DNA of 64,000 nucleotides from Jaapia argillacea MUCL 33604 (Eukaryota; Basidiomycota; Agaricomycetes; Jaapiales; Jaapiaceae): assembly GCA_000697665.1 (NCBI GenBank), contig KL197712.1, forward strand, positions 1,658,940-1,722,939, in the 5' to 3' direction. Below the pieces are notes generated by a model that was not told the DNA's origin, searched no databases, and was given only the letters and a program-made list of their open reading frames with translations. Each line of letters starts with the position of its first letter. Positions within the stretch are counted from its first letter, which is position 1. Of this stretch, positions 20,267-58,654 are shown one piece after another. The position numbers and the translations under genes were made by a program.

Positions 20267-21979
20267 CTATGGGGTACTACTGGCAGCACCTCGAATACGC
20301 AACATTTTTGGGGATTGGGTGGGTGAATCCGAGGAGGGCTGTCCCATAGGTCCTTCGGGAGCATCCACAGAAGGAATTGTTATATCATTGTGAGGTGGCG
20401 AAGGAGTCGTAGCATGTGTGCTGATTGACTGCAGGGGGCCGGAAGCCAACAAGCTGTCATCGTATCGGACGGACGGGGAGACTGAGTGTTCGGTGAGCCT
20501 TCGAGGTGATGTGTGGTCAGCATTCGACACCCTAGATGGACCAGGAGAGCGCATTTCCACCAAACCTCCGTAATTGCTATGAGTCAGGGCAGATAAGGTC
20601 GCGGGTCGTTCTGCGACTCGGTCAAGGCCGGTAGCGTTAGAAGCCGGGGCTACATCGACAGACATTCGGGAAAGGGAGGTAGCATAAGAGGTCCGCCTAC
20701 CGCGCTGGCCCCTGAAGGATTTCACAGACCCCCGGCTCCTGGCTGGGGGTAAAGGTGAATCAATCTTGCGCCGCTTCGGGGCAGGCAATTCGCTCTCGTC
20801 TGCGTATGACGCTTGCTTCCAGGACATTGCATCATCGTCGGGGTCACCACGTGGAACGTCTTCAAGGTCGTTGTATCGGAGACGGCTGCGTTTCTGATGC
20901 GGGAACTTAGAGGATAAATTTCACAAAATGAGGAAACGTACCTGGGGCAGTGAGGGGAGGGCTGCGGGCATCGACATCCTGGATAGTAAGTCTGGGGGCG
21001 GTTCCATTCTTGACAGTAAGTCCGGAGTCGGTGCCGTCCTCGAGAGTGAATTTGGGACCAGCGACATGTGTGACAAAAGATCTGCAGATGGTGATTTCAT
21101 TGAGTCCAACACGTCCCTTGCGCGCTCTCGAAAACGGGTTCTGGCTTCTTGTTGAGCCTATTCCGTGGGGTGAGAAGTCAAACACATTGAGCAAAGGAGT
21201 ATCACTCACTTCGGTAAGCTCAACATGGCTTATGTTCATTGACGCAACCGAAACAGACCTTTCTGTTCCCTACGAGATAGTGAGCGAAGAAGGGAGATAT
21301 CACGGTTGATACGCACATATACTTCTACTCGTGCGAGACGATGTATCTAAAGTCAAAGATACAGTAAGAGATGACCGAGTGGAAGCAAATCTCGACGTAC
21401 CCAAAAGTCGTCCATCGCCGCTTTCCAATCCTCTTCTCCAAGTTTTCTCCAAGCCGCCATCTTGTACTGGCGAATGTTACGCAGGTCTGCCCGGACGGGG
21501 CCACTCACACAGTACGTCGCTGTTTGGGATTGTGGGGGTCGATATCGTGGACCAACCTCAATATCATCCGGTAAGGTGTAATTCAGGGCCAGTATCCATT
21601 GCGGACCATTTGGCCAGTCCGGAGTCGTCGTGATCCATGTAGGGTGACGACGACGCTCGTCTTGAATATCTTTCGAGACTTCTGTGCTCAGCACAGGGAC
21701 CATATACCAGTGGTAAACACCCGGAAGTTCATCAGCGTCATGTCCGCTGTACGAAGCCATGAGTAAGACCTCCGTATCACCTTGACCTTTCGACCCCATA
21801 ATAATGGCGGGGCGGATCTTGGTGCTACCCCGTTTAGCGAGGTACTCCGCCTTCGCCAGCTCCTCCTCCCAGTCTTCACCGCCTGGTGTCCTGGAGAATA
21901 AGGAAAGAATCGGGAGCATAATCGAGGCCTTTACAGCTCGAATATCGCCAACAGCAACGGGACCATAAGACAGAGCCAT
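20267..21979 (-). CDS. X1: uncharacterised protein with conserved N-terminal domain, DLLS repeats and NLS-like tail
   Basis: I do not recognise this family. Exon 1 (21979-21401, ATG at 21979) encodes about 193 residues with VGDIRAVKASIMLPILSLF, KIRPAIIMG, VYHWYMVPVLS and WPNGPQWILALNYTLP. It is paralogous to X2 at 48.9 kb (FGDIYVVRGSIALPILELF, KARPAIIV, SSQQWVLALEYTPP). Downstream exons can be joined (about 21320, 21270-21220, 21170-20940, 20885-20267). They encode AQQEARTRFRERARDVLD, a run of near-repeats ending DLLSRM, and a long disordered Ser/Pro/Arg tail with PAPKRRKID, a monopartite NLS pattern. It is divergent from family-Y gene A1, 637 bp apart. Exons 2 and 3 are the least certain. 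Confidence 0.6.
20945..21085 (-). repeat. Short tandem repeat coding for xPxPDLLSRM-like units
   Basis: In the X1 frame the protein repeats about every 10-11 residues: SADLLSHM, VPNSLSRT, TPDLLSRM, PPDLLSRM. At the DNA level the units resemble one another (gacttactgtcaagaatgg and relatives). This is a small coding minisatellite within the low-complexity part of X1. Confidence 0.6.
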
Positions 21980-22616
21980 GTCGGATAAGCTAAGCCAGCA
22001 AGTTCAAGAGATTGAGAAGAATGATATGATAGGCCTGGGGGCGGTGGTGGTATCAAGTGATACAAACCACACCTGTTATAAAGAATCAGTCATATAAAGA
22101 CAGGATATTTTTGTACTTCGCTGTAGACATAGGAGGACAATAGCGGTGAGCAGGTTACGATTAACGTTGTTGTTGCTGTTGCACTGCCAGGTAGGGTGCC
22201 ACTGGCCGCAGTGAGACACACAAGCCATACTGTATCGGGTTCCTCTTTTACTGACGCAGAAACTACTACCAAGTCACGCTTGCAGATGACAATAGTGCCA
22301 ATGCAGTAGTCCCGTTGTTTCGTGGCTCCGTATACTTCGTGGTTACGGTTGAACCAAGCACAAACCAAGGTCAGTTGCAGAATTTGCAATTCTTAGTCGA
22401 ACAGTCCGAGAACAAATGGATGTTCTCTGTCAGGTCCGACGAACTGCCAGCAAGATCTCACGCCACGCCACATCTGTTGTTCTTGTTCTCGTTGAATGAT
22501 AAGCAAAGCAATTGTTCACCTCTGGGATAATGTTCTTTATCACCAGCCCTCGCACCAACCTCTCGACAAAACCCTTCCAAGTGTTGTGACCGCGAGGCAT
22601 GACCACTTCACAATAC
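21980..22616. promoter_or_regulatory. Intergenic region between divergent X1 and Y gene A1
   Basis: The 637 bp must hold the promoters of both X1 (minus) and A1 (plus). The part next to A1 resembles the 5' flanks of A2 and A4 (caccagccctggcaat-like motif, then Cys/Asp-poor leader). No other gene is supported. Confidence 0.45.
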
Positions 22617-24298
22617 ATGCCTCTACAGATCAACAATGCTGCGGTCATCGATGATGTGCCAGTCGACGCACGCACCCACTTGGGTGACAGTCCGAAGAAG
22701 ACGAAACACAACCCATTGATCAACGCATTCGTCGCCCTCTCGATCGATCCCGTAGCAACCGTACGAGCTTTGGAAGATCCTGTCGCCGTGGCGGAGGCGG
22801 AAAAGTTACCCTGCAAAACTTATGTCGGTCTAATTGATGATGTACGCACCCACTCCTTTTATTGGCCGTGCGACTTAAAGCAATCTAGTATTACGGCTTG
22901 CCCGGCCCATATGACCCATTCACCGAGACCTCGATCTGTCTCGTTGGCCAGGGACTCCCTCCTCACTCAGAGGAGTATTTCAGCCAACCTAGCATGTCCA
23001 TTCCGCTCTCCCCGGGTGCAGAACACCCGCTGGGGCGGGATCCACTGAAACTCACAAACCTGCTGCCGTGGCCAAACTGCTATGTTTATACCTGTTCAAC
23101 AGTGAAGGCCAGGATCCGCTCTGCCCCGTACGATGACGGCCTCATTGTCTCGAAGATATCTGACAATAGGGATTGGTGGCGAAAGAATTACTTTATCACA
23201 ATGGATGATGATACTCAACAGGATCTCCGAAATGTTTCTCGCTCCTTGATACACGTTGTGGAGACGACATCAGCGCACGATACACAAACCTCCACAGATG
23301 CAGGTCCCGATTGGCAGGCGGTATATGCTCAACTTGCTACTCCGCACCGAGCTCAAGATGCTGAAATCCAGTCATGTGCAGTCTCGAGGGGAGACTCCAC
23401 TTCTTGGTCGTTGGATTCGTCCTCCGATATTGATGCTTCCAAGGACGACCACATGATGGGTGTCATGGCAGCCATGTTGAGCCTAAACTCGACCCCATCC
23501 GTGTTGACAGTGGTGGATGCGTGGTACGATCTATCGAGAGTAACGACAATTCCTGATCCGCGAGGGTTTCTCGAGGAGAGAAAGGCGCTCGACGAGTGAG
23601 TTCCTTTCTATCGACGATTATTCCGCTCGTTGACTGCTGTTCTACAGGATCAAGCGAGCCTCGAAGAAGCGCTTGCGTCCCTGGATGGTGGCTCAGAATG
23701 AGTTGTGGGAGAAAGAACAAAGTTTGCGGAAAGAATGGTTCGCTGCAGCACTCAATGCACCTGAACCTCCTCCACTGCCCGTCGTCGATGAAGCCGACCG
23801 AACAGACATCTCACAATCGTCATCGAACGAGATTGTCGAACAGAATTCAGGGTCGGCCGGCTCTGATGGGGCTGTGGTTGCTCATTCTCCAGTCCCTCTG
23901 CCTGATTGCGAAGCGGTGCAACGACATACCCAGACTCGGTCCCTCGACAGCGTTGCCCAGGGGGGCTTGGGACTGAACCCTAGCGCTGACCCAGAAGATT
24001 GTCACGAGGATCGAAATCCACGCCCCCAGGGGGTGAAGCGATCCACTACCGACCTTGATGTCGTCGATGAACATTCCAGCAAGAAGACTCGTAAGTTGCT
24101 CAGTTTTGAGAACGAAGTCCCCATCCTGACATCTTGCTGACAGGCCTCGATGTCCCGCGTATCGCCATTGCGAGGGCCGAAGGCTCGCAAATTGCGGTTC
24201 CAAAACGTGAAATCATGCGACGGAAAAAGAGTAGGTTCATTTTTCGGCGCCTCCACGCAACGCGATGTTCACCATTTTGGAACCAGCTCTGCACGTGA
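22617..24298 (+). CDS. A1: Y-family protein, array A copy 1
   Basis: An unrecognised family, here Y. The ATG at 22617 (MPLQINNAAVIDD) matches the starts of A2-A4. Exon 1 ends at GLIDD; a 47-nt intron leads to YYGLPGPYDPF. Core landmarks are INAFVALSIDPVATVRALED, LVGQGLPPHSEEYFSQPSMS, IPLSPGAEHPLGRDP, LTNLLPWPNCYVYT, MMGVMAAMLSLNSTP and VVDAWYDLSRVTTIPDPRGF. Exon 3 begins IKRASKKRLRPWMVAQNELW, a charged, probably helical segment, then an acidic disordered stretch, KRSTTDLD...SSKKTR (bipartite NLS-like) and after a third intron AIARAEGSQIAVPKRE, MRRKK. If no further intron exists, the stop is at 24298. No known domain is visible. The A copies are about 80-90% alike by eye. Confidence 0.65.
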
Positions 24299-25117
24299 AG
24301 TCATGGATACCCGACCGATTGAGCTCAGCCTATCATCGATTTCAGACGGGTTTACGCCACTTCAAAGCTGTAACCGCAGTTTCAGATGGGTTATTCTTAT
24401 CCACCTAGGCCAGCACCATCTACGGCGTCTGTTTTCGTATTCTTTCGGTGTTGTGGTGCGAATTGTATTTATTAAATCAGTATACCCCAGCTTTCCCGCA
24501 AACTGTTTCGTAAAACTTGGCTTGGAGTGGTCTCATTTTCAAGAGGCACTGGCGATTCCGAAGGTGTGAATATGTAATGAAACGCAGAATGGCATCCATA
24601 GTAATCCCCACTTTAGGAAGGATCAACTTGAAATTGATCCCTATGAAGGCGTTAACGTTCAACTCAACCTTTCTTCACGTGGCCAACATCCGGCACAAAT
24701 GGTTTTCACCAAGCGTCCATTCTCTTGGTCTTGTCATTACACCGTCGCCAGCATTCAGGCCTTATGGTCGTACGGAATAACGGAGTCTAGTCGCCACACG
24801 CCCACAGCAGGGATAAGCACCGAGCACAACTTGAAGTCTCAAGCCTCAAACAACAAATACCTTAGCATGAATGAAGAACAAAAACAACAATTGAGCCAGT
24901 CCAAAAACAAAATGGATACTTAGTGCAATCTCACGGTGCGCCTACAGTACTTACTGTAGTCCCGGTCCTTATTCTTATTCTTGTTGTCGTTGAATGGTAA
25001 TCAGAGCTATTGTATCAACTCCCCTCTACCATGAATTTCTCGATTACAAGCCCTGGCAATCGAACCTGCCCACAAAGCACATCCAAGTCTCGCAGTTGCT
25101 AGCTATCATAACAAGCC
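24299..25117. other. Spacer between A1 and A2
   Basis: Contains a 3' flank that recurs after A2 and A3 (for example ttcagatgggtta and attttcgtattctttcggtg-like blocks), showing that each duplication unit includes the non-coding flank. No independent gene supported. Confidence 0.5.
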
Positions 25118-26790
25118 ATGCCTCTCGATATCGACGATGACCCCTTCGTTCCGGGCGTCGACGATGTGTTAGCCGACACGCCCAGTAGCTCCCGGCAGCG
25201 GGGCGACAAATCAAAGGAGAAAAATGGCGGCCCCTACCTGCCGACCTACCCATTGATCGACGCATTTGTTGCACTATCGATCGACCCCGTAGCAACTGTC
25301 CAAGCTTTGGAAGATCCTGTAGCTCTTGCAGAGGCGGAAAAGCTGCCCTGCAAAACTTATATTGGTCTAGTTGACAACGTACGCCGTCATCACCGGTTTC
25401 TTTCATTGGCGATCCGACTGAAAATATCTCAGTACAGCGGCTTGCCCAGCCCATATGACCCATTCACTCGGACCTCAATATGTCTCGTTGGCCAGGGACT
25501 GCCCCCTCACTCAGAGGAATACTTCAGCCAGCCTAGCATGTCCATCCCTCTCTCCCCGGGTGCCGAACACCCGCTGGGACGAGATCCGCTGAAGCTCACA
25601 AATTTACTTCCCTGGCCAAATTGCTACGTTTATACGTGTTGGAAAGTCGTTGTCAGGGTTCGCTCCGCTCGATATGATGATCGCCTCATTGTTTCGAAGA
25701 TATCTGACAACAGTCAGGGATTTCGGAAGGCTTACTTCGTCACAGGAGATCGCGATGCTCAATGGAAACTTGAAAATGCTTCTCGCTCTTCGGCACGCCT
25801 TGTCGAGAAGACGTCATCACACGCGACTCAAGATCTCCCAGATGCAGGTCCCGATTGGCAGGCGGTCTATGCTCAACTTGCTGCTTCACACGTAGATCAA
25901 GATGTCGAAGTTCAGTCTTGTACAGGTTCCAGGGGAGATTCTGCTACCTGGCTACCGTCCTCCGATGTTGATGATGCTTCTAACGATGAGCACATGATCG
26001 GTGTGATGGCCGCCATGTTGAGCCTCAACTCGACCCCATCTGTGATGATAGCGGTGGATGCATGGTACGATCTATCGAAGGTACCAGCGATTCCGGATCC
26101 GCAGGGATTTCTCGGGGAGAGAAAAGCCCTCGACGAGTGAGTATTTTCTGTGGATCGCGATGATTCCCCTCATTGAATCCTATTTTCAGGATCACGCGAG
26201 CCTCGAAGAAACGCTTGCGTCCCTGGCTGGTGGCTCAGAACGAGTTGTGGGAGAAAGAGCAAACAATGCGGAAGGAGTGGTTCGCTGCAGCACCCGACGC
26301 ACCTGAGCCCTCTCTAGTGCCCGTCGTCGATGAAGCTGACCGAACAGATGTCTCGCAGCTTGAGCTACCGTCGAACGATATTCTCGAACAGAATCCAGGG
26401 TCGACCGGCTCCAATGTGACTGTGGTTGCACATCCTCCAGTTCCGGTACCTGATTGCGAAGAGGTGCGACAGCGTATTGACTGTCCACCACTCGACAACC
26501 CCGCCGAAGTGGACTTGGGACTGAATCCTAGTGCTGACCCGGAGGATTCTCCTGAGGATCGAAGCCCACGCCCCCATGGGGTGAAACGATCCACTACCGA
26601 TCTTGACGCCGTCCATGAACATTCTAGCAAGAAGATCCGTAAGTTACTCAGTCTTGATAACGAAACCCCTGTCCTGATCTTGTCTACAGGCCTCGACGTC
26701 CAGCATGTCACCATTGCGAGGGTCGAAGGCTCGCACATTGTGGTACCCAAACGTGAAGCAATGCGACGGAAGAAATGTAGGTTTATTTAA
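25118..26790 (+). CDS. A2: Y-family protein, array A copy 2
   Basis: A paralogue of A1 with the same core (PYDPFTRTSICLVGQGLPPH, HPLGRDPLKLTNLLPWPNCY, VDAWYDLSKVPAIPDPQGF). The ATG at 25118 gives MPLDIDDDPFVPGVDD and a longer charged N terminus (RQRGDKSKEKNGG). Two positions that are introns in the other copies are open here: the 54-nt first intron and the 51-nt third intron are both multiples of three without stops. The protein can therefore be read with or without splicing at those sites. The intron before ITRASKKRLRPWLVAQNELW is needed. The end is RRKKCRFI, stop at 26790. Its C-terminal basic motifs are intact. Function unknown. Confidence 0.65.
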
Positions 26791-27798
26791 CACCGTTTTC
26801 ACTGCGCACCGCGGTGTTGACCCTTTTCGAACCAGCTCGACCCGCGAAGTCACGGATACCTGACCGATTAAGCTCAGCCTATCATCGATTTCAAGCGGGT
26901 TTACGCCACTTTAAAGCTGTCACCGCAGTTTCAGATGGGTTATCTTTATCCGCCCAGGCTGTGGCCCGTCTCCATGCGTAGCGCCTTGGTTTCGTATTCT
27001 TTCGGTGTTATGGAACAAATTATATTTATAAATATACCCCAGCTATCCAGCAAAATATTTCTTAGAACTCGGCTTTTTGAGTGGTCTCATTCACCAACGA
27101 TTCCAACGTTCATCGGGTCCATAGCGAAATTGCCACTTTAGGAAGGATCAAATCGAAGATTTATCATGAAAGCAATTGACCAAATATATTTTCCTCACAT
27201 GGCCAACATCCGCACAAACTTGAATGACTTTCACAGAGCCTCTATTCTCTTGTTCTTGTCACCACACCGTCGCCAGTATTTATGCCTTATAGTCCTACGG
27301 AACAACGGAATCTGTTCGCCACACCAGTGGTGTGGCGAACAGATTCCGTTCCCGAGCCAAGCCTGAGCCTGACAGTAGGGCCCGGCCTCGCTTTGCAGTA
27401 AGCCTTGACCCTTCCAAGCCAGGCCTAAGCCAGGGATTTTGAGCCAAGCCAGAGCCCGCACAACACTACACACCACCCGCCGCAACCGTGATAAGCGCCT
27501 AGCACAACCGGGACTCTCGAGTCTGAAACAAAAAATAACTTGTGCAGTATGAATGAAGAACAAAAGCGACGATTGAGCCAGTCCGAAAACACAATAGATA
27601 CTTAGTACAGTCTCACGGTGCGCCCACAGTCCCAGTCCTTATTCTTGTTGTTGTTGGAGGGTAGTCAGGGCAGATCAGAGCTATTGCATCACTTCCCCTC
27701 GATGATGATTTCTCGCTTACCAACCTGCCCCGACAATCTGATCCCTCGATAAGCCCGTCCGAGTCGTTTCACTGTCCCTCTGCCATACTTACTAGTAC
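26791..27798. other. Spacer between A2 and A3 with a perfect hairpin and a GCC-rich insert
   Basis: Homologous to the other A spacers at both ends. In the middle (about 27327-27460) it carries extra DNA: the second arm of a perfect palindrome and a stretch with repeated gagccaagcc / aagccaggcc motifs that the other spacers lack. No gene. Confidence 0.55.
27304..27350. repeat. Perfect inverted repeat, 23-bp arms with 1-nt centre
   Basis: Arm 27304-27326 (starting aacggaatctgttc) is exactly reverse-complementary to 27328-27350, with G at 27327 between them. The left arm corresponds to sequence present in the spacers after A1 and A3. The right arm is the added part, which looks like a templated inverted copy. 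Confidence 0.9.
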
Positions 27799-29484
27799 AT
27801 GCCTCTTGAACTCAACCACACTTCCGTCGTCGATATGTCAACCGACGCACCCACCCGGCAGGGGAGTGATGGGTCCAAGGAGACCAAACACAACCCAATG
27901 ATCAACGCATTCGTCGCCCTCTCGATTGATCCCGTAGCAACTGTGCATGCTTTGGAAGATCCTGTCGCTACGTCGGAGGCGGAAAAGTTGCCCTGCAAAA
28001 CTTATATCGGTCTAATTCATACTGTACGCAGATATTTCCGACTCCTTTCATTGGCTGTGCAACTTAAAGAAATCTAGTATCACGGCTTGCCTAGCTCACA
28101 CGACCCATTCACTCAGACCTCGATCTGTCTCGTTGGCCAGGGACTCCCTCCTCACTCAGAGGAGTATTTCAGCCAACCTAGCATGTCCATCCCACTCTCC
28201 CCGGGTGCCGAACACCCGCTGGGACGAGATCCGCTGAACCTCACAAACCCGCTGCCGTGGCCAAACTGCTATGTTTATACCTGGGCAAAAGTGAAGGCCA
28301 GGATTCGCTCTGCTCAGTACGACGACAGCCTCATTGTCTCGAAGATATCGAACAATCAAGATTGGTGGCGAAAGACTTACTTTATCAGAATGGATCGTGA
28401 TACTCAATGTGGTCTCCAAAGTGTCTCTCGCTCTTCGACACAAGTTGTGGAGACAACATCAGCACACGATACCCAAGCCTCCACAGATGCAGGTCCCGAT
28501 TGGCAGGTGGTATATGCTCGACTTGCCACCTCATACCGAGATCAAGATGCTGAAATCCAGTCATGTGCAGTCTCGAGGGGAGACTCCACTACTTGGTCGT
28601 TGGATTCGTCCTCCGACATTGACGCCTCCAAGGACGAGTACATGATGGGTGTGATGGCAGCCATGTTGAGCCTAAACTCGACCCCATCCGTGATGACAGT
28701 GGTGGATGCGTGGTACGATCTATCGAGAGCATCGACGATTCCTGATCCGCAAGGGTTTCTCGAGGAGAGAAAGGCGCTCGAAGAGTGAGTTTCTTTCTAT
28801 CGAGGAGGATGATTCCGCTTGTTGACCGCTGTTCTACAGGATCACGCGAGCCTCGAAGAAGCGTTTGCGTCCCTGGCTTGTAGCTCAGAATGAGATGTGG
28901 GAGAAAGAACAAAGTTTGAGGAAAGAATGGTTCGCTGGAGCATTCGGTGCGCCTGAGCCTCTTCCACTCGACGAAGCCGACCGAACAGCCGTCTCCCAAT
29001 CGTCGTTGAACGAGATTGTTGTCGAACAAAATTCAGGGACGACCGGCTCTGATGCGGCTGTGGTTGCTCATTCTCCAGTCCCTCTGCGTGATTGCAAATC
29101 GGTGCAACGACACGTCCAGAGTCAGCCACTTGATAGTCCTGCCCAAGAGGACTTGGGACTGAACCTTATCGCTGACCCAGAAGATCGTCACGAGGATCGA
29201 AACCCACGCCCCCAGGGGATGAAACGATCCACTACCGACCTTGATGTCGTCGATGAGCATTCCAGCAAGAAGACTCGTAAGTTGCTCAGTTTTGAGAGCA
29301 AAGTCCCAGTCCTGACATCTTGCTGACAGGCCTCGGCGTCCCGCGTATCGCCATTGCGAGGACCGAAGGCTCACAGATTGTGGTACCAAAACGTGAAATC
29401 ATGCGACAGAAGAAGAGTAGGTTCATTTTTCAGCGCTTCCACGCACCGCGATGTTCACCATTTTTGAACCAGCTCTGCATGTGA
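27799..29484 (+). CDS. A3: Y-family protein, array A copy 3
   Basis: A paralogue of A1; the ATG at 27799 gives MPLELNHTSVVDMSTDAPTR. The first intron (after GLIHT) joins to YHGLPSSHDPFTQTS. The core repeats the family landmarks (EEYFSQPSMSIPLSPGAEHP, LTNPLPWPNCYVYTWAKV, MAAMLSLNSTPSV, VDAWYDLSRASTIPDPQGF). Exon 3 begins ITRASKKRLRPWLVAQNEMW. The C terminus has KRSTTDLDVVDEHSSKKTR and PKREIMRQKKSRFIFQRF; the putative stop is at 29484. A3 and A1 are closest to each other in the middle exon (both have DIDASKD...MMGVMAAML and DTTTW/SLDSSSD patterns). Function unknown. Confidence 0.65.
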
Positions 29485-30312: not shown

Positions 30313-31937
30313 ATGCCTCTAGATATCGACAACACTCCGGTCGTCGACGATGTGCCAATCGACGCGCTGGTGACCTGCCAGCAGGAGGGCGAAGGGTCAA
30401 AGAAGACCAAGCACAACCCAATGCTCGACGCATTCGTCACCCTCTCAATCGATCCCGTAGCAACTGTCCAAGATTTGGAAGATCCCGTGGCTCTTGCCGA
30501 GGCGGAAAAGTTGCACTGCAAAACATATATAGGTCTAATTGATATTGTACGCAATCATTTTTGACTCCTTTCATTGGTGGTACGAAGGCTCAAAAATATC
30601 TAGTACCACGGCTTGCCTGGCCCACATGACCCATTCACTCAGACTTCGATCTCTCTCGTTGGCCAGGGACTCCCACCGCATTCAGAGGAGTACTTCAGCC
30701 AACCCAGCATGTCCATTCCCCTCTCCCCGGGTGCTGAACATCCACTTGGGCGAGATCCGCTGAAGCTCACAAACCTGCTGCCTTGGCCAAACTGCTATAT
30801 TTATACCTGGGCGGAAGTGACAGCCAGGATCCGCTCTGCTCCATACGACGATAGCCTCATTGTTTCGAAGATATCTGACAATAGTGACGGCTGGCGAAAG
30901 GCTTACTTTCTCATAACAGATCGTGATGCTCAAGGGGACTTGGAAAATACCTCTGGCTCTACGGCACACGTGGAGAAGGTGTCTAAGCACGCCACCCAAG
31001 ACTCCCCAGACGCAGGCCTCGATTGGCAGGCAGTTTACACTCAACTGGCCACTTCACACATAGATCAAGATGCTGAAATCCAGTCTTGCGCAGTCTCGAG
31101 GGGAGACTCCACTACCTGGTTGGGCTCATCCTCCGATGTCGACGCTTCAGCCCATGAACATACGATCGGTGTGATGGCCGCCATGTTGAGCCTTAACTCT
31201 ACCCCATCCGTGATGACAGTGGTGGATGCATGGTATGATCTATCGAAAGTATCGGCGATTCCTGATCCGCAAGGGTTCTTCGAGGAGACAAAGGCGCTCG
31301 ACGAGTGAGTTCCTTTCTATCGACACGATGATTTCGCTCGTTGACCGTTCTACAGGATCAAGCGAGCCTCGAAGAAGCGTTTGCGTCCCTAGCTTGTGGC
31401 TCAGAATGAGATGTGGGAGAAAGAACAAAGCTTGCGGAAAGAATGGTTCGCTGCAGCACTCGATGCACCTGAACCTCCTCCACTGCCCATCGTTGATGAA
31501 GTCGACCGAAGAGACGTCTCGCAATCGTCGTTGAACGAGATTGTCGAACAGAATTCGGGGTCAACCGGCTCTGATGAGGCTGTGGTTGCTCATTCTCCAG
31601 TCCCTCTGCCTGATTGCGAAGAAGTACGACAACGTTCTGGGAGTCCGCCACTCGATAACGCTGTCGAAGAGGAATGGGGACTGAAATCTAGTGCTGACCC
31701 AGAAGGTGTGTTACTCAAGTCTTCCAGGTGTTCCGACGGTCATGCTGATACTTACCCAGAAGCTTCCCCTGAGGATCAAAGCCCGCGCTCCCAGGGTATG
31801 AAGCGATCAATTACCGACGTCGATGGTGCCGATGAACATCGTAGAAAGAAGACACGTAAGTTTCTCAGCCGACAAATAAGTCGCTGTGTCCTGACATCTC
31901 GCTCACAGGTCTTGATGTCGTGGTGGACCAAAGGTAA
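30313..31937 (+). pseudogene. A4: Y-family copy 4, truncated by an in-frame stop
   Basis: The reading frame matches A1-A3 through MPLDIDNTPVVDD, a first intron (GLIDI to YHGLPGPHDPF), HPLGRDPLKLTNLLPWPNCY and VDAWYDLSKVSAIPDPQGF. After the second intron, exon 3 reads IKRASKKRLRP and then TAG at 31390-31392, where the other copies have TGG (Trp). The rest of the exon stays open downstream (QNEMWEKEQSLRKEWF), so the stop looks recent. The tail is also altered: 54 nt extra at about 31705-31758 and a shortened last exon (LDVVVDQR, stop at 31937). If translated, it would lack the charged C-terminal half and the NLS-like motifs. Confidence 0.7.
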
Positions 31938-32183
31938 GTTTGTTTGTACCGCTTCTGTGCAACCGTGATGTTCACGCGTTTTTGATATCGCACTACCCAT
32001 GAAGCTTGAAGTCGCAACCCACCGGGAACCTGACTGATTGAGCTCGGCTCACCGTCGATTTCCAGGCCGGTTTACGCTTCTTCAAAGTTGAGACCGACTA
32101 GCCTGACCTGTTTCCAGCCCTTCGTTTTGTATTCTCTCGATACTTTGGCGCAAAATGTATTTTCAAGATAATGTTAATCACAT
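31938..32183. other. 3' flank of A4
   Basis: Degenerate copy of the flank seen after A1-A3, running up to the inverted-repeat element. No gene. Confidence 0.4.
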
Positions 32184-32578
32184 GTACTGTACAATTTCGA
32201 TCACTTCGGCAGCGCTTGTGACCTGTGACCACGAAGTTTCGATTCGTCATTTCGGCACTTTGCATTGAGGCCTGTGACAAAATGAAAATTTCGGCACTTG
32301 GTGGGTGAAAATTGTATTGTTTGGATGTTATACCACTTTAGTGCAATGCTACCAGTAGCAATGAGCCCAATTAGCACGAAAACGGCATCAAACAGCCCCG
32401 AAAACGCCAAAATCGAGCCCAGAAATGTACCTGGGCGATTTTTTGAAATGTCATGCCTTGTGACAACCGAATTTTCGATTCGGCAGGGGTCCCGGTGACC
32501 GGTGACCAACACCTAAAATTCGTCGGCAGAGGGCCTTGTGACGTGTGACATGCCGAAGTGATCGAAATGGTACAGTAC
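32184..32578. mobile_element. MITE-like element with 28-bp terminal inverted repeats
   Basis: The ends 32184-32211 and 32551-32578 are inverted copies of each other with one mismatch (starting gtactgtac...). The 395-bp interior has no long open frame, so it would be non-autonomous. Several tgtgac motifs lie inside near both ends (cttgtgacctgtgacc on the left, ccttgtgacgtgtgac on the right). If the outer gtac on each side is a target duplication, the element proper is 32188-32574. It sits exactly where the array A homology ends. No transposase is present in the window. Confidence 0.75.
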
Positions 32579-32653
32579 CCTGGGGTCGCCGTCAATGTTA
32601 ATGATGCCTCGTAGAATCTGGCTCGAGTCCTCTTGCTTGCCAATCACTTGCAG

Positions 32654-36338: not shown

Positions 36339-39044
<2,706 letters not shown>

Positions 39045-47667: not shown

Positions 47668-48896
47668 CTAAACAGCCGCGACCTGCGGGCTAGGCGGAGG
47701 ACTGTATGTCGATGTATCAAGAACAGCGAATCGGTTGTTGATATTCGCACCCGGCTGTGAGTTAGAATTCTGCAAAGGGGCGCATACGGATCCACGTCTC
47801 GACGCAGCAAGGTCCACGATTCTGGGTGATGGCTCTGTTCGGGTAGGATGAGATCCCGAAACGAATTTAGGGGTAAAATGGGTCCCATTGGTTTTCGTGG
47901 TCGTGGTGGAGTTTCTCGAGATACTTGACATTATTGATGCCACCGACAATCTTGATCGACCAGCGGACCTCCTGAGGACCTTCATGATCGTTGTCAGTGG
48001 TGCTGGTGAATTATATAAGTTTTTCACTTGCCAAAGGAGCATTGGGTTTTCGGGCGGGGTCCGCGATTATGTATCCATCTGCCACACCTTGTTTGAACTA
48101 ACCAACCGGATCCGCATGCAGTTAAAAAGATCGGAAGTCTGAGAAAAGTGATTCAGATGACTTGCATTTTCCTTTTTCCGCTCTCTAAGGTGTCTCTGTG
48201 TTTCTGTCAGTGGGAGGCTTGAAACGTGGAATGATGGGAACCTACGAAGAATTCATCTCTCATTTCCAATTTCAGCCTCCTGGGAGTATCCACCATATAT
48301 TTATTCAATTGCTCCTCAGCGTACCCACGCGCTTTCTGCAGCAGACCAGCGTCCACTGCGTAATGAGTAAGGGGATCTCCGATTTCGTCGCCAGGTGATT
48401 CCCATCGACCACTACCCCAGTAATTGGCTGGAGGAGTGTACTCCAAGGCAAGCACCCACTGCTGGGAGGAACCTCGCCACTCTGGAAGAGTGTGGATATG
48501 GCGGTCTTCGTTGGGGCTTTGACGGTGCAAGGCACGCGAATTGACGGCCATAAGGAAGTGCTTGTATAGCCTCGGTAACGAACGATACTCTGAGGTGTTT
48601 TGGAACGTTGCCATGTACCAGATCGGCGGATGCCATCCACCAATGAGATTATCTTTCGGCCTCGTCTTGACAATGATCGCAGGACGCGCCTTATTCAAAT
48701 GAGGGTAGCTCTCGTAGTCATCTTGAGTCTTTTGAGAGAACGCTGTCTTCATAGTTTGGTCGCCCTTGAAAAGTTCGAGGATGGGGAGCGCAATAGAGCC
48801 GCGAACGACATATATGTCACCGAAGTCAATTGGTTGTGACGATGGTATTAATCGGGAGGCTTGGGAATCGGGAAAAAAGTGCTTGCAAAGGGGCAT
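47668..48896 (-). CDS. X2: paralogue of X1
   Basis: The ATG at 48896 (MPLCKHFFPDSQASRLI) opens an exon of about 216 codons. It carries the X-family landmarks FGDIYVVRGSIALPILELF, KARPAIIV, GWHPPIWYMATFQ, RGSSQQWVLALEYTPP and KLEMRDEFF. The intron starts near 48245. I could read small exons (KHRDTLESGKRKMQ, then TSDLFNCMRIR), then a Ser/Thr-rich last exon ending at 47668 (SVASIMSSISRNSTTTTKTN ... STYSPPPSPQ). Only exon 1 and the tail frame are clear; the junctions between are guesses. A shorter protein ending near 48000 is possible. Like X1, it is divergent from the first member of an adjacent Y array (B1, 448 bp away). No known domain recognised. Confidence 0.55.
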
Positions 48897-49344
48897 CTTC
48901 CTGTCGGATAGATGGTGAGTATATCGCAGGCTTACTGTGAAGGATTGGTGCTGAGGGCGGGCGCCAGTAGTGCAGACGGATTTAAACTAGAACTAGAGGA
49001 TCGAGGTCACCAATTACTTGTCACAAATCGCTGCACAAGAGAGCACAAGTGCAGATCGCGAAGGAAACAAAAGAGGTCCTCCAGCTTGTGAATCGGCTGT
49101 GATGCATATGTTCATGACGGGTTGTAGAACTTGGGTGGCGCCCAAACGTTGTTTCCGCGAACGCAGTCGCATTGTGACAAAAGAGAACACGGACCCACAA
49201 ACCTGCACTGCCGAAGGAAATCGTTGTTCCTCCTTCTAATTGTTGGCAACACCCATCATGATACCACTTTTGTTTACATGGCAGAGACTGCAGACTGCAA
49301 ATACTCCGTAGGCCGCTGATTTCCCTTTCACACCACCACTCGCT
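48897..49344. promoter_or_regulatory. Intergenic region between divergent X2 and Y gene B1
   Basis: These 448 bp must hold both promoters. The part nearest B1 (from about 49280: gccgctgatttccctttcacaccacc) recurs just before B2, B3 and B4, and is the conserved leader of array B. Confidence 0.5.
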
Positions 49345-51385
49345 ATGGTTGCCTCATGTCAATCTTCCATCACTTCGGGCAGCCTGCTCGGTGTATCTGA
49401 TGCTTTTGGTGCCGACTACGACGATCACGGCCCCGAGGACCCCATGAGTAGCCCAGTACTCAAGAGTATCTTTATTTTCTGGATCAATCCTGTCGCCACC
49501 CTCAATGCACTTCTTCGGCCTGAACTAACTGACGCAGAGATCGCAATGGTCGAATCTCTGCCTGTCAATCGATATGTTGGCTTCTTAGATAGCGTAAGTC
49601 TTGTCATCTCTGCGATAAGATCTCCACCCATCTTCTGACCTGGTAGATCTATGGCCTGCCCTTCGACGATGATCCATTCCTGGAGTGTGACCTCTACTTC
49701 GTCTCCCAAGGAGGGCTCCAACCTACGGACCATAACAGGCTGATGGACTCCACTATAGGAGTTCCGATTTGGCCCACGACCGAGCATCCTCTCGGTCGAG
49801 AGCCCATCACGTTGACCAACCCCCTCCCTTGGCCTAACTGTTACCTTCACACCACCATATCGGCTCATTTGCGCATTTTGGCTGCGGAGTTTTTCAAGTC
49901 CAATATTCCCGCTCGCATGCCACTCTCTCAGTCGGTTCGTCTAATGTGTCTTCATAGCGAAGACCTGGAGAGGCAGAACACCTTATCTATGTCTCTGGTT
50001 GGACAAAACCCTCAAGCAACGGAGCCACGCGATGATCATCCGGTTGTGCAAACCATGTCAACTGATGAGGAGCAGCTACATTACGAGAGTAATGACTCCC
50101 AGGATGACATTGGCGATATCCTTCTGGCCATGATGACCACAAACACAAGGGATTCCAAATTACCAATGGTGGATGCATCGTANNNNNNNNNNNNNNNNNN
50201 NNNNNNNNNNNNNNNNNNNNNNNNNNNNNNNNNNNNNNNNNNNNNNNNNNNNNNNNNNNNNNNNNNNNNNNNNNNNNNNNNNNNNNNNNNNNNNNNNNNN
50301 NNNNNNNNNNNNNNNNNNNNNNNNNNNNNNNNNNNNNNNNNNNNNNNNNNNNNNNNNNNNNNNNNNNNNNNNNNNNNNNNNNNNNNNNNNNNNNNNNNNN
50401 NNNNNNNNNNNNNNNNNNNNNNNNNNNNNNNNNNNNNNNNNNNNNNNNNNNNNNNNNNNNNNNNNNNNNNNNNNTTACCAATGGTGGATGCATCGTACGA
50501 TCTCTCGTTACTGACGGAGGTGCCCGATCCTCGAGGATATTTCGAGGATAAGAAAGCACTTCAATCGTGAGTGGTCTCTTTGCTTTTCTCAGACGAGTGA
50601 TGACGTTTTCTTCTATCCGCAGGTTGCACGCAGAAATACTGCGCCGTAGAGCAGCCCTCGAGGCCGAAGAAGATGCTAGATGGGCCCAGGAGCGAAAGGT
50701 AGAAGAGGAACGTCAGCTCGCTGCCGCTTCCGCTGTTTCCCCAGGTCGCTCATCCCGAAAGACCCGTATGTCCTGACTCACTAGCAAGATTGGCCACAAC
50801 TGATCAGTATGTTTCCAGGCTACAATCTTCGACATATGTTTGCTAGGCGTAACATAACACTGGATTCTGTCATGACGGAGGACTTACGAGACGGTCCCAC
50901 CACCTCACCTAGGAGACGTGAGTCACCCACCCACGTCTATGTCTCCCTCTGCTCTCATATTACAAATCCATTCTGAAGGTCCGAAATTTTGGAATCTCCT
51001 CTCACATCCACGAGAAGGGAAGGCGAGTTATGATAGTATAGCTCCCGGTTCGTCTGGAAAGAGAGGTTAGTTTTCCTCTACATTTCTTTCGCGCTCAATC
51101 CAAGTCCCATCACGTCACTTCAGGTTCTATTTTCTCCAAACTCTTCCACTCGAACTCGGGTTCAATGGTACTCCAGCCCGAAGTAGTCACTGGAAAGACG
51201 CGAGGTGCGTTCGTTGAATCCTCATTCGGCCCCAAAGCTTCTCTTTAACCCATATCATCCCTCCAGTAGAGCCAAAATCACGTGCTCAAGGCAGGCTGAT
51301 ACTTGCCTTTCGTCAAATTCAGAGGACAATTTGGTCGCAAGGTAACGAGCCGACAACTGTTACTACCACAGTCGGAGGGGAATGA
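49345..51385 (+). CDS. B1: Y-family protein, array B copy 1 (contains an N run)
   Basis: The ATG at 49345 (MVASCQSSITSGSLLGVSDA). Core: FIFWINPVATLNALLRPELT, IAMVESLPVNRYVGFL, intron, YGLPFDDDPFLECDLYFVSQ, GVPIWPTTEHPLGREP, TLTNPLPWPNCYLHT, ILAAEFFKSNIPARMPLSQS, DDIGDILLAMMTTNTRDSKL and PMVDASYDLSLLTEVPDPRG. Exon 3 begins LHAEILRRRAALEAEEDARW (a charged helix). Four short C-terminal exons follow, to a stop at 51385 (YNLRHMFARR, KFWNLLSHPREGKA, SIFSKLFHSNSG, then IQRTIWSQGNEP). Positions 50183-50474 are N; the flanks overlap by 23 bp, and joining them restores one open frame. Function unknown. Confidence 0.65.
50183..50474. other. Assembly gap (292 N) inside B1
   Basis: A run of N. The sequence 50160-50182 before it equals 50475-50497 after it, so the two contigs overlap and the gap is probably artificial. 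Confidence 0.95.
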
Positions 51386-51787: not shown

Positions 51788-53528
51788 ATGGTTGCCTCTT
51801 CTCGATCTTCCCTCGGCTCTGGCAGCCTTGTGGATCTGTCCAGTGATAATTTGGATGTCGACTCCGACAATCATGGCCCCGAGGAGCCCATGAGCAGCCC
51901 AGCGCTCAAGAGCATCTTTGTTTTCTGGATCAATCCTACTGCTACTCTCAACGCACATCTTCGGCCTGAACTGACTGACGCGGAAATTGCAATGGTCGAG
52001 TCTCTGCCTGTCAATAGATACGTTGGCTTCTTGAACCGCGTAAGTCTTGTATCATCTGTCCATAAGACATCCATTCATTCTGCTTGGTAGATCGATGGCA
52101 TCCCTTTTGATGATGATCCATTCCTAGCGTGTCGTCTCTACTTCGTCACACAAGGACTCCAGCCTACAGACCATAATCGGCTCCTTGACTCCACTATGGG
52201 AGTTCCGATTTGGCCCACTACTGATCATCCACTAGGTCGAGAGCCCCTTAGGCTGACCAACCCCCTCCCCTGGTCCGACTGCTACCTCCACACCACCGTA
52301 TCGGTTCATTTGCGCATCTTGGCTGCCGAGTTCTTCAAGTCCAATATTCCTGCTCGCATGCCACTCTCTGAGTCGCTTCGCCTAATGTCCATTCAAGCGG
52401 AAGACTTGGAAAGGCAGAAAACCTTATCTGAGTCTCGGGCTGTCCAAGTCCCGAAAGTAGCGGAGCAACACAACGATCAACCCGTTCTGCAAACCATCCC
52501 AACTCACGAGGAGCAGCCACGGTACGAGAGTGATGACCCCCAGGATGACATTGGCGACATCCTCCTGGCCATGATGACCACCAACACAAGGGATTCCAAG
52601 CTGCCGATGGTTGATGCATCGTACGATCTCTCGTTACTGACGGAGGTGCCCGATCCGCGAGGGTTCTTTGAGGATCAGAAAGCTCTCAAATTGTGAGTGG
52701 TCTCCCTGTTTTTCCTCAGAGAGGAATAGCTGATAGTGTAGCTTTTCTTCCATTTTTAGGCTTCACGCAGATATTTTGCGCCGCAGGGAAGCTCTCGAGG
52801 CCGAAGAAGACGCTCAATGGGCCCAGGAGAAAAAAGCGGAAGCGGAGCGTCAGGATGCTGCCTCCGCTCCTTCCCCAAGCCACCCACCCCGAAAGACCCG
52901 TATGTCCTCACCCGTCAGTGAGCATTGCTAGGGCTGATCTCTCTCCGCTTTCAGGCTACAACCTTCGAGACATATTTTCCAAGCCTCGAATAATACCGGA
53001 TTCCGCGATGACGGAGTCCTTACGAGATAGTCCCGCCACCGTACCTAGGAGACGTGAGTCGCCCAGCCACGTATATGTCTGCCTCCGGTATCAAATCACA
53101 ACTCCATCTTGAAGGTCTGAAATTTTGGCAGTTCATCTCACATACACGAGAAGGGAAGGCAAGCTATGATAGTATGACTCCTAGTTCGTCCGGAAAGAGA
53201 GGTCAATCTTCCGCTCCAGTTCTTTCACGCTCAATCTAAGTCCCATAAAGTCACGTCAGGTTCTATTTTGAACAAATTATTCCACTCGAGCTCGGGTTCA
53301 GCGGTACACCAGCCCGAAGTAGTCGCTGGAAAGACACGAGGTGCGTTCATCGAATCCTCATTCGGACCCAAAGGCTAAAGCTTCTCTTTAACCTATCTCA
53401 TCTCTTCAGTAGAGACAAAACCACGCGCCCAAGGCAGGCTGAGACTTGTATTTGGTGAGATTCAGAGCACAATTTGGTCGCAAAGGCACGAACCGACAGC
53501 TGTTACTACCACGGTCGGAGGAGAATAA
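51788..53528 (+). CDS. B2: Y-family protein, array B copy 2
   Basis: The ATG at 51788 (MVASSRSSLGSGSLVDLSSD), preceded in frame by a leader with another Met at 51743. Core as in B1: KSIFVFWINPTATLNAHLRP, then IDGIPFDDDPFLACRLYFVT, HPLGREPLRLTNPLPWSDCY, VDASYDLSLLTEVPDPRGF. It is the most diverged of B1-B3. Exon 3 is LHADILRRREALEAEEDAQW. The C-terminal exons are YNLRDIFSKPRIIPDS, KFWQFISHTREGKASY, SILNKLFHSSSGSAVHQPEV, then VETKPRAQGRLRLVFGEIQS, stop at 53528. All junctions join in frame. Function unknown. Confidence 0.68.
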
Positions 53529-54473
53529 TAGCCTGGACATTGTTTATGATTACTATATGTATCAGGTACACTGTTGTCTTCAAGTTTAGCCAAACTGCAC
53601 TAGCCTGTGATATGAAACAAGGGTGTAATTCTTGTACTCAAGATAGTTCAGCGTGAAGAAGTCAAGTGTGGCGTGGACCAGTGTGGACCCACAGACCAAA
53701 AATGTTGAAAAATACATTTATAGTATGACAGTATTTTTCATCAAATATTCCTGTATCCAACTTCGGGGAATTCGATAACTTTCGACCCTCCAAGTTCAAC
53801 TTTCAACTTCTCACTAAGAACATCAGCAGCTGCGTCGCTTGATACTTTCCACCTGACGGATCATCACTACAGCAAGGTAACAGAGGCCCTCAACCCATCC
53901 TTTGATACTTTTTCTGAACTGGAATTTTCCTTGCAACGCGTTTGAACCATTTTGAGGCCCCAATTGCCACTTTAGGCAAGACGAGAGCCTGTTTTAGACT
54001 TATAATATCGAAATACTTTTTTCAGAAAATTCAGGTGGTGTCAATATGGTGCTTCCAACAAGCATCGACACCGAAGTCTCTGAATGATTCTACCTCGTCT
54101 GCCAAGATGGAGGGTACAGCACCCCGCATAACATGAGTACGAGGAGCGACAATGTTGGGAGTGGACAGTGGAGTGTGCAATTGCACCCTCGCGCACGTGG
54201 CAGTCGAAAGTCGCCCAGTCGTTGGGGGACGGCCGTGAAAAGTCCCTAGATCTCCAAAAAGTGGAATTTTTGTTGAAAAATACATTTATAGAACGTTGAC
54301 AACGTTGATCACCCACTACTGGCTGCAATTCACGTTCTTGTGCTTGTCCTAATTGTTGCATCTGTCATGAATCCACTGCTTTTGTTCGACCTGAATTTAC
54401 TGCAAACAGGATATCATGTCGACCCTATAGGGTCTGTAGGCTACCGATTTCCCTTTTCACACCACCCCTCGCC
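53529..54473. other. Spacer between B2 and B3 with a 589-bp insert
   Basis: The flanks match the B1-B2 spacer. The middle (53703-54291) is an insertion listed separately. No gene is supported. Confidence 0.55.
53703..54291. mobile_element. 589-bp insert bounded by perfect 21-bp direct repeats
   Basis: The 21-bp ends 53703-53723 and 54271-54291 are identical and in the same orientation (tgttgaaaaatacattt...). The corresponding place in the B1-B2 spacer (cagaccgaaagttgaca) lacks both the repeat and the interior. The interior has no long open frame. The repeat is not part of the empty site, so it is not an ordinary target duplication. Confidence 0.65.
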
Positions 54474-56193
54474 ATGGACGTCTCTTGCCAGTCTTCCATT
54501 GCTTCTGGCAGCCTCATCGATGTATCTGATGCTTTGGATGCAGAATACGACGATTACGGCCCTGAGGAGCCCATGAGTAGCCCAGTGCTCAAGAGCATCT
54601 TCGTTTTCTGGATCAATCCTGTCGCCACTCTCAATGCACTTCTTCGGCCTGAACTAACTGACACAGAGATCGCAATGGTCGAGTCTCTGCCTGTCAATAG
54701 ATATGTTGGCTTCTTGAATAGTGTAAGTCTTGTTGGGTACGTGATAAGATCTGCACTCATCTCCTGACTTGCTAGGTCTATGGTCTGCCCTTCGACGATG
54801 ATCCATTCCTGGAGTGTGACCTCCACTTCGTCTCCCAAGGAGGACTCCAACCTACGGACCATCATCGACTGATCGACTCCACGATGGGGGTTCCAATTTG
54901 GCCTACGACCGAGCATCCATTGGGTCGAGAGCCTATCACGTTGACCAACCCACTCCCTTGGCCCAACTGTTACCTTCACACCACAATATCGGCTCATTTG
55001 CGCATCTTGGCTGCGGAGTTTTTCAAGTCCAATATTCCCGCTCGCATGCCATTCTCCCAGTCGCCTCACCTCAGGTCCCTTCATACGGAAGACTTGGGAA
55101 GGCAGAAAGCCTTATCTGCTTCCCGAGTTGTCCAAGTCCCTCAAGTAGCGGAGCAGCACAACGATCGGCCCGTTCTGCAAACCACGCTAACTCACGAGGA
55201 GCACCTATCTTACGAGAGTGATGACCCCCAGGATGACATTGGCGACATCCTTTTGGCCATGATGACCACAAACACAAGGGATTCCAAATTACCAATGGTG
55301 GACGCATCATACGATCTCTCGTTACTGACGGAGGTGCCCGATCCTCGAGGGTACTTCGAGGATAAAAAAGCGCTTCAATCGTGAGTGGTCTCTTTGCTTT
55401 TCTCACACGAGTGATGACGTTTTCTTCCATCCGCAGGTTGCACGCAGAAATACTGCGCCGTAGAGCAGCCCTCGAGGCCGAAGAAGATGCTGGATGGGCC
55501 CAGGAGCGAAAGGTGGAAGAGGAACGTCAACTCGCTGCCGCCTCGGCTGTTTCCCCAGGTCGCCCATCCCGAAAGACCCGTATGTCCTCACCCACCAGCA
55601 AACACCATTACGACTCCTCACTAAGTTTCCAGACTACAATCTTCGACACATATTTGCTCGGCGTCACATAACGCCGGATTCTGGTATGACCGAGGACTTA
55701 CGAGACGGTCCCGCCACCTCACCTACGAGACGTGAGTCACCCACCATCGTCTACGTCTCCCTAATCTCATATTACACTCCATTCTGAAGGTCCAAAATTT
55801 TGGGATTTCTTCTCACACCCAAGAGAAGGGAAGGCGAACTATGATGGTATGGCTTCCAGTTCGCCTGGAAAGAGAGGCTAGTCTTCATCTACAGTCCTTT
55901 CGCTCGATCTGAGTCCCATCACGTCACTTCAGGTTCTATTTTCACCAAATTCTTCCACTCGAACTCGGGTTCAATGGTACTCCAGCCGGAAGTAGTCACT
56001 GGCAAGACGCGAGGTGCGTTCATTGAATCCTCATTTGCCCAAAAACATCCATTCAGCCTATCTAATCTCTTCAGTAGAGCCCAAATCGCGTGCTCAAGAC
56101 AGGCTGGGACTTGGTTTTCGTCGGATTCAGAACGCAATTTGGTCGCAAGGTAACGAGCCGACAACTTTTACTGCCACGGTCGCAGGGGAATAA
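54474..56193 (+). CDS. B3: Y-family protein, array B copy 3
   Basis: The ATG at 54474 (MDVSCQSSIASGSLIDVSDA). Exon 1 ends at 54722; the intron leads to VYGLPFDDDPFLECDLHFVS. The core is HPLGREPITLTNPLPWPNCY, DIGDILLAMMTTNTRDSKLP and MVDASYDLSLLTEVPDPRGY. Exon 3 is LHAEILRRRAALEAEEDAGW, then VEEERQLAAASAVSPGR. C-terminal exons: YNLRHIFARRHITPDSGMTE, KFWDFFSHPREGKANYDGMA, SIFTKFFHSNSGSMVLQPEV, VEPKSRAQDRLGLGFRRIQN, stop at 56193. The intron after the KFWDFF exon appears to start GC (55877-55878) where B1 has GT. B3 is very close to B1 through the middle exons. Function unknown. Confidence 0.68.
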
Positions 56194-57321
56194 TAGCCTG
56201 GACATTGTTGGTGATTACTATATCAGGTACTGGTGGTACACTGTTGTTTTCAAGTTTAGCCATACTGTGGCAGCCTGCTTAATGAAACAAGGGTTTGATT
56301 CCTTGGAGCGTATTGTACAAAATATGATACAAGGTAGTACTTTGAGTGCAGTTGTTTTATGTCGTCCGATTAAATGTTGACATGGATGCCGGTGCTGCCC
56401 GTGGTGTGCGTGGCATGCGGACTCACAGACCAACAATTGGAACGTCGAACGTTGACCTCTGCTGCGTGGCTTGCGGAGTCGTGAGAATAGCAAAATCAGA
56501 GGCCTGCCACAATCGGCCGGCCTCCACGAGGGTGTATTGTCGACGAGCGGGAGAGCTAATTACACACAGTAGAGAAGCGAAGAAGAGCCATATGCAATGT
56601 AATACGGGGCGCGCAAAGTCTCAAGACAACACCAAAAGAGGGAGAGGAGGGAGGGTGACAGAAAAACTGAACGTCGAAGAGGATAAGCTAAGAGTCAATA
56701 ACTTGATTAGTATTCCAACGAGATACGAAAGAGTGGGCGAAGCCCTCACCGAACGAAGCTAATAAGGTGGAGGTGATAATGTAGATTATCTTCGAAAGAA
56801 CCTTAAAGTAGCTGTTCGAGAGAATCTCGTTAGATACAAGTCATACTTGGAGAGAGGGCGCGAAGCGCATACCTGAGCTGAGGAAAAGATCTCTGAGACG
56901 ACGAGAGACTGCCAGCAGCTCGAGATAAAGGGATTCCAAGCGAAAATGATTTTTCTCTTTACTGCTCCAGATTGGCCTCTGCTAAACGATAGCACCAATC
57001 GAAGGGCGAGAGCGACCATAATCAGAGGTGGAGCCGTCTGGGCAAGTGGAGCGATGCTCACCGAATCACCAAAATAGGAAGGATCGACGAGGAGGACCGT
57101 AAGCGGGCGCAGAGGCCTACGAAATCACACCTTACCCCTGGAACCCGCTATTACGACGACCCCTGGAGTTCCAAGTCTTGTTCTTGTCCTAATTGTTCAT
57201 CTGTCACGAATGAGTCCGCTGCTTTTGTTCGACCTGAAAGCCACTGCAAACACAATATCACGTCGACGCCATCTAGTCTGTAGGCAACCGATTTCTCGTT
57301 CACACCCCTCAGGCTCACGAT
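56194..57321. other. Spacer between B3 and B4 with an insert of about 0.7 kb
   Basis: The left end (to about 56480) and right end (from about 57165, gttccaagtcttgttcttg) match the other B spacers. Between them lies unrelated, A/G-rich DNA with two unsupported open frames (plus 56346-56762, minus 57061-56786). It shows no terminal repeats that I could find. Confidence 0.5.
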
Positions 57322-58654
57322 ATGGCTGCCTCCTCTCAATCTTCCATCGGCTCTGGCAGCCTTGTGGATTTATCTGACGGTTTGGATGCCGACTACGAAT
57401 ATCACGGCCCTGAGGAGCCTATGAGTAGCCCAGCGCTCAAGAGTATCTTTGTTTTCTGGATCAATCCTGTCGCCACCCTCAATGCACTTCTTCGGCCTGA
57501 ACTAACTGATGCAGAGATCGCAATGGTCGAGTCTCTGCTTGTCAATATTTACGTTGGCTTCTTGAACCGCGTAAGTCTTGTATTCCCTTTGTTAGGATAT
57601 CCATTCATTCTGCTTGGTAGATATATGGCCTGCCCTTCGACGATGATCCGTTCCTGGAGTGTGACCTCTACTTCGTCTCCCAAGGAGGACTCCAACCTAC
57701 GGACCATCATCGACTTATTGAATTCCCGATGGGAGTTCCAATTTGGCCTACGACCGAGCATCCATTGGGTCGAGAGCCTATCACGTTGACCAACTCCCTC
57801 CCTTGGCCCAACTGTTACCTTAACACCACCATATCGGCGCATTTGCGCATCTTGGCTGCGGAGTTTTTCAAGTCCAACATTCCCGCTCGCATGCCACTCT
57901 CCCAGTCGTCTCACCTCAGGTCCCTTCATTGGGAAGACTTAGAAAGGCACAAAACTTTATCTGAGTCTCGGGCGGTCCAAGTCCCAAAAGTAACGGAGCA
58001 ATTCAACGATCGACCCGCTCTTCAAACCATGTCAACTGATGAGGAGCAGCTCCGTTACGAGAGTAATGACTCCCAGGATGACATTGGCGATATTCTTCTG
58101 GCCATGATGACCACAAACACAAGGGATTCCAAATTACCAATGGTGGATGCATCGTACGATCTCTCGTTACTGACGGAGGTGCCCGATCCTCGAGGGTACT
58201 TCGAGGATAAGAAAGCACTTCAATCGTGAGTAGTCTCTTTACTTTTCATAGACGAGTGATGACGTTTTCTTCCATCCGCAGGTTGCACGCAGAAATTCTG
58301 CGCCGTAGAGCAGCCATCGAGGCCGAAGAGGATATTAGATGGGCTCAGGAGAGAAAGGAAGACGAGGAGTGTCAAATTGCAGCTGCAGCTGCCGCCGCCA
58401 CCACATCCCATGGAGTCTCTCCCAAGAAAACACGGTCGTTTTTAGGCAGCCGTAGACTCAGAAATATATCGAAGCAACTTCAGCAACTATTTGCTCGCCG
58501 AACATCGGCGGATTCGCGAGGTGATATCGCCTCCGTCCGTAAGAATGGCAAGTCACCTCTTCATCATTCTCTTGCTTCCGGGTCGATGACCGACTCCATA
58601 CCCAGATTCCAAACCTTGGACGTTCTTCAGGCGTACACAAGATTGGTTAGCTAG
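57322..58654 (+). CDS. B4: Y-family protein, array B copy 4, with a different C terminus
   Basis: The ATG at 57322 (MAASSQSSIGSGSLVDLSDG). The core matches B1-B3 (VFWINPVATLNALLRPELTD, YGLPFDDDPFLECDLYFVSQ, HPLGREPITLTNSLPWPNCY, VDASYDLSLLTEVPDPRGY). Exon 3 begins LHAEILRRRAAIEAEEDIRW but then diverges: an Ala-rich run (CQIAAAAAAATTSHG), SPKKTRSFLGSRRLRNISKQ, LQQLFARRTSADSRGD, and a new tail to a stop at 58654. The LFARR segment recalls YNLRHIFARR of B3, but the three following exons are not found. A splice near 58635 could add the frame 58730-59077 (MACLDFSKSGSGPLQLEALV ...). Function unknown. Confidence 0.6.

Follow-up and report, generated by a model that had tools for sequence, protein, structure and literature searches.

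Are two gene families that face each other in a fungal genome partners, or neighbours that were copied together? The question is raised by a 64,000-nucleotide (nt) stretch of Jaapia argillacea contig KL197712.1 (here C4), which we call the window (C4:1658940–1722939, within a 43.7-Mb genome). At two places in it, a gene of one family, X, diverges from a tandem array of genes of a second family, Y. Genome-wide searches show this pairing at seven places, and the X-Y association is genuine, recurrent and old. The likeliest reading, which we favour with modest confidence, is that X and Y are two families passed on together as a single divergent gene pair, and that they probably work together.

Both X genes of the window (X1 and X2) lie on the minus strand, head-to-head with the first Y gene of arrays A and B, respectively, with 637 and 448 bp between start codons. 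An earlier note on this DNA had described this layout, ATG-to-ATG distances included, and it holds. Each gap (21980–22616 for X1/Y-A1, 48897–49344 for X2/Y-B1) is a candidate bidirectional promoter. Exon 1 of X1 (21401–21979) encodes a conserved region of 193 amino acids (aa) and is followed directly by GTACGT. Its likely last exon, placed at 20267–20920 from open reading frame (ORF) and frames, has the stop directly after 20270 and includes a basic patch, PAPKRRKID, at 20759–20785. Exon 1 of X2 (48249–48896) encodes a conserved region of 216 aa, with a likely GTAGGT donor one codon further, and the likely last exon (47668–48066) ends at 47671; the splicing of both genes is predicted. The C-terminal motif of X2, NNRFAVLDTSTYSPPPSPQVAAV (47671–47739), has counterparts ending four copies outside the window (X3, X5, X6 and X7). 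X1 and X2 had been called paralogues, and searches of the whole genome agree: the X2 query retrieved X1 at E 5e-9 (31% identity), and the X1 query retrieved X2 at E 1e-8.

Arrays A and B hold four Y genes each, all on the plus strand. In array A, exons 1–2 span 22617–23596 in Y-A1 (exon 1, 22617–22841; exon 2 from 22889), 25118–26137 in Y-A2 (25118–25378; from 25433), 27799–28785 in Y-A3 (27799–28023; from 28078) and 30313–31305 in Y-A4 (30313–30546; from 30604). A further exon falls in an ORF at 23634–24140, 26164–26790, 28826–29326 and 31393–31968, respectively, that of Y-A2 containing a bipartite basic patch at 26584–26643. In array B, the same two exons span 49345–50567 in Y-B1 (exon 1, 49345–49593; exon 2 from 49647), 51788–52693 in Y-B2 (51788–52039; from 52091), 54474–55381 in Y-B3 (54474–54722; from 54776) and 57322–58226 in Y-B4 (57322–57570; from 57621). 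Exon 2 of Y-B1 is interrupted by an assembly gap of 292 N (50183–50474), flanked on each side by an identical 23 bases, which may hide or duplicate sequence. The core that the two arrays had been said to share is indeed present, as ~85 residues of exon 2 common to the A and B genes, and when ten of the genome's Y genes are aligned, 12 columns are invariant. Between Y-A2 and Y-A3 lies a perfect 23-nt inverted repeat with a 1-nt loop (27304–27350).

To count the families, we took the union of four X queries (X1, X2, X4 and X6) and four Y queries of the whole genome. Because the search scores only the best candidates, all X and Y counts are lower bounds; matches at E 0.18–2.1 on C35, C3 and C1 were excluded as chance. 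At least seven X copies retain a whole exon 1, and there is one further fragment; no single query recovers all of them. Genome search found X1 (C4:1680.9k, minus strand), X2 (C4:1707.8k, minus), X3 (C4:1758.2k, plus), X5 and X6 (C37:94.1k and C37:103.6k, both plus) and X7 (C7:434.5k, plus); X4 (C4:1824.1k, minus) first came to light when the fetched stretches were searched locally. The fragment (C9:642.5k), found with the X1 query alone, lies beside a piece of a Tc5-type transposase. Y has at least 19 genes, plus one fragment (C4:1749k), in eight clusters: A and B in the window, with four genes each; G (C4:1755–1757k, two genes plus the fragment); H (C4:1824k, one gene); I (C4:1889k, one gene, a lone Y); E (C37:85–93k, four genes); D (C37:100–103k, two genes); and F (C7:433k, one gene). 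Seven of the eight adjoin an X.

Every X copy whose exon 1 is whole (seven in all, five of them outside the window) stands head-to-head with a Y, the start codons being 637, 448, 428, 522, 495, 476 and 555 bp apart (the X3 start is approximate). The Y genes of every array are all on the same strand and are directed away from X, and the first Y faces X in 7/7 modules. X is single in each module, and Y is present in two or more copies in five of the seven. The exceptions to pairing are the C9 X fragment and Y cluster I. The earlier proposal that an ancestral X-Y pair was duplicated as a unit is supported, but not in number: the genome holds seven pairs rather than two. Linkage was looked at among paralogues within this one genome, and the result favours it. 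Judged from sequence, the gap lengths are short enough to suit a putative bidirectional promoter. In having 428–637 bp between starts and a conserved orientation, X-Y resembles known head-to-head pairs with bidirectional promoters, but it differs from them in occurring at least seven times, with amplification on one side only, and co-regulation here is putative.

Were the pairs duplicated as units? A Y tree was built from 18 of the 19 genes, the C37:89k copy being omitted because its exon 2 is broken. Arrays A (support 94/90) and B (100/99) each form one clade; G joins B (97/95), and F joins the C37 genes (87/86). In the X tree, X2 pairs with X3 (75/78), and X5, X6 and X7 form a group (84/89), without a strongly supported fork; the placement of X1 and X4, both long branches, is unsure. 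Distances between modules agree for X and Y (Mantel r 0.92; 2 of all 5040 permutations, identity included, reach this value), which fits a pair duplicated as a unit, followed by local amplification of Y. The proposal that Y was amplified beside each X is right for A and B, where amplification came after the pairs split, and perhaps for G (82/77); on C37 the picture is mixed.

Purifying selection acts on the copies compared, as indicated by ratios of nonsynonymous to synonymous substitution rates (dN/dS). By the Nei–Gojobori method over Y exon 2, dN/dS was 0.18–0.45 in 14 of 15 pairs, the 15th being saturated at synonymous sites; these pairs share genes and are not independent, and B1, with its N gap, was excluded. 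X5/X6, the sole X pair compared, gave 0.20. In all 14 Y pairs, the core had lower values than the tail (0.10–0.32 versus 0.21–0.63).

As far as the searched libraries show, X and Y are uncharacterised, and the earlier note, which recognised neither, was correct in this. Searches of Pfam, NCBIfam, PHROGs, PADLOC and PDB with X and Y gave chance-level matches only, the best being a pentapeptide-repeat model (E 0.017, one of ten Y members) and PDB Mdm2 chains (E 0.05, X profile). The Y profile had no relative in the viral contigs or prokaryote genomes searched, and literature searches, judged by title or start of abstract, gave no paper describing such a pair. The X motif GDI...RPAII is reminiscent of PemK/MazF-like proteins; no Pfam match supports this. 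A distant kinship between X and Y was rejected (profile comparison, E 0.64, probability 0.1%). Exon 1 of X has invariant G26-D27, R71-P72, T136-x-P138-x-W140 and Q146-W147 (X2 numbering; five members). By eye, X2, X3, X5, X6 and X7 share a C-terminal N-x-[FY]-A-x-L ahead of a proline-serine-rich end, and no such C-terminus was seen in X1 or X4. Inspection of Y shows [YF]-x-G at the end of exon 1, H...R...PW-x-x-CY in the exon 2 core and D-L-[ST]...P at the end of exon 2. The starts of X and Y have, to the eye, no hydrophobic leader, and basic patches occur in X1 and in the array-A Y tails, so both proteins may be intracellular and possibly nuclear.

These data suggest that X and Y are a two-part system long kept together. 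Under the reading that we favour, the two would be co-expressed from a shared promoter region, and one constant X partner would have several alternative Y partners, their core fixed and their tails diverging. Duplicated modules would then diverge as matched sets. If X and Y are partners, each family may lead to the function of the other, and the matched modules offer a natural experiment on partner specificity following duplication. Otherwise, they are a clear case of long-lived linkage through block duplication. Two families unmatched in the searched libraries occur together at seven genome places, in strict orientation and with one-sided amplification.

Several findings weigh against a working partnership, one of them from the gaps. 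The word AACAA occurs 44 times in the 3561 bp of the seven gaps versus 62 times in 29,899 bp of non-coding-like sequence elsewhere, and is thus ~6 times denser in the gaps. Upstream of four ordinary window genes, however, it occurs 7, 5, 4 and 2 times per 500 bp (18 in 2000 bp), so that 12.4/kb in the gaps compares with 9/kb before ordinary genes; these four were hand-picked for clear starts, and two of the upstream stretches overlap because a WD40 and an amidase gene are head-to-head. The density is 2.8/kb when all 53 non-X/Y ORF starts of the fetched stretches are counted, though many of these are surely not real gene starts. An HMG-box-like motif was rejected as a module-specific signal, AACAA being nearly as frequent before ordinary genes. 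AACAA probably marks promoters in general here, and is not evidence for module-specific co-regulation. The SOX9 optimum, AGAACAATGG, has AACAAT as its core (PMC8066042), and the smut pheromone element, for comparison, is ACAAAGGGA (PMC3248468). A T precedes AACAA in 37 of 444 cases across all fetched stretches, gaps included; its seeming avoidance is weak. The WD40 gene (minus strand) and amidase gene (plus strand) lie ~0.2 kb apart at 16726–17867, and AACAA occurs 7 times within 500 bp upstream of the WD40 start.

Other difficulties mostly concern individual copies. The tie of X4 to the X family is weak (E 1.8e-6 to X6, 0.0016 from X2), and the X4 query misses X1 and X7. At cluster I, no X was found by the genome searches or by reading 2 kb upstream. 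AlphaFold models were unusable, with a mean predicted local distance difference test score of 31.6 for X (2 rows) and 35.3 for Y (15 rows, the first read through one intron). Frames are broken in two of the seven X copies: X3 has one in-frame stop, and X7 has one stop and one frameshift. The Y genes facing them have an open exon 2, so X may be dispensable there. Exon 2 frames are also broken in the Y copies at C4:1755k and C37:89k.

The broken X copies are also among the points in favour of the main rival, linkage by descent only, in which chance neighbours were duplicated as a block several times with no functional tie. We regard this as possible but rather unlikely. The mirrored divergence of X and Y is also expected if two neighbours duplicate as one block, with co-duplication alone yielding it. 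Moreover, local block duplication is active, given that one contig carries four of the seven pairs inside 145 kb and another carries two inside 10 kb. The X-Y cluster of C37 contains a 2.3-kb block that is present twice at 95% identity (86.9–89.2k versus 98.0–100.3k). This duplication is recent; the block carries a DUF455-like gene fragment and adjoins a Y copy 86% alike over 0.5 kb. Y genes of the neighbouring modules D and E interleave there which, together with the 95% block, indicates that amplification and block duplication are mixed on this contig. Yet the pair persists where X proteins have only ~20–27% identity, while the neighbours found differ. In an all-versus-all comparison of ORFs of at least 40 aa (E up to 1e-4) over the window and 96 kb of fetched stretches, no gene besides X and Y recurred in three or more modules, with stretches around X-Y masked, where a small gene could be missed. 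Outside the C37 module pair, sharing was limited to an F-box family (G/H), a short stretch (B/F) and one 24%-identity match (E/H). The first Y also faces X in every module although gene order is not frozen, as Y copies outnumber X copies. Four TTAGGG units in a row, sought for subtelomeric position, are absent from the assembly.

Partnership could also take a bolder form, a new fungal partner-recognition system in which each X is specific to the Y of its own module, giving insulated sets with a mating-pair-like layout built from unrelated families. We put this forward only as a speculation with a small chance of being right.

Less probable again is that X and Y form a selfish or conflict pair (a killer and antidote, for example, or an allorecognition system), with birth-and-death turnover of Y. 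Tandem amplification, pseudogene-like copies, restriction to few clusters and the lack of a known domain in X and Y would all suit it, but selection over the compared stretches is purifying, not diversifying. Two X and two Y proteins were compared with PADLOC, and none had a match at E up to 1; the X and Y proteins scanned had no Pfam match to a known toxin, antitoxin, defence or incompatibility domain. Remnants of a two-gene mobile element are, we think, slightly more doubtful still. That idea draws on the several dispersed modules, on the transposase piece beside the C9 fragment and on a small element with 28-nt inverted repeats just after array A. Against it, X and Y have no Pfam match to a transposase or integrase domain, no inverted repeats of at least 18 nt bound arrays A or B (the two arrays searched), and only seven modules were found, strongly diverged and under purifying selection. 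The small element, at 32184–32578, resembles a miniature inverted-repeat transposable element, its repeats (96%) lying 339 nt apart.

Mating-type loci offer close parallels in layout. The HD1/HD2 loci of basidiomycetes have two genes diverging from a short shared region, in several diverged paralogous pairs; X-Y is alike in its divergent transcription (7/7 modules) and in its several diverged pairs, but has no Pfam homeobox match, lies on other contigs and has a tandemly amplified Y. Pheromone/receptor loci have one constant gene beside several partner copies, the pheromone being a short CaaX precursor. X-Y likewise has a constant X beside several Y copies, but X lacks a receptor match, Y exons 1–2 alone encode ~270 residues, and STE3 pieces lie elsewhere. 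A mating-type-like locus, whether HD1/HD2-like or a receptor with several pheromone genes, is thus largely excluded despite its divergent, paralogous pairs with one constant and one amplified partner, as X and Y match neither homeodomain nor receptor and the only divergent homeobox pair found in the genome (C2) and its STE3 pieces are on no X-Y contig. The genome has three Homeobox_KN matches, on C2 and C3, and the two on C2 are 1.2 kb apart on opposite strands, pointing apart. This divergent arrangement, the large number of STE3 pieces and the many short introns are features that suggest a basidiomycete. The STE3 pieces number 62 over C50, C47, C20, C75 and C23, with none on C4, C37 or C7; most are on C50 and C47, and they suggest that the STE3-type receptor family is expanded in this genome.

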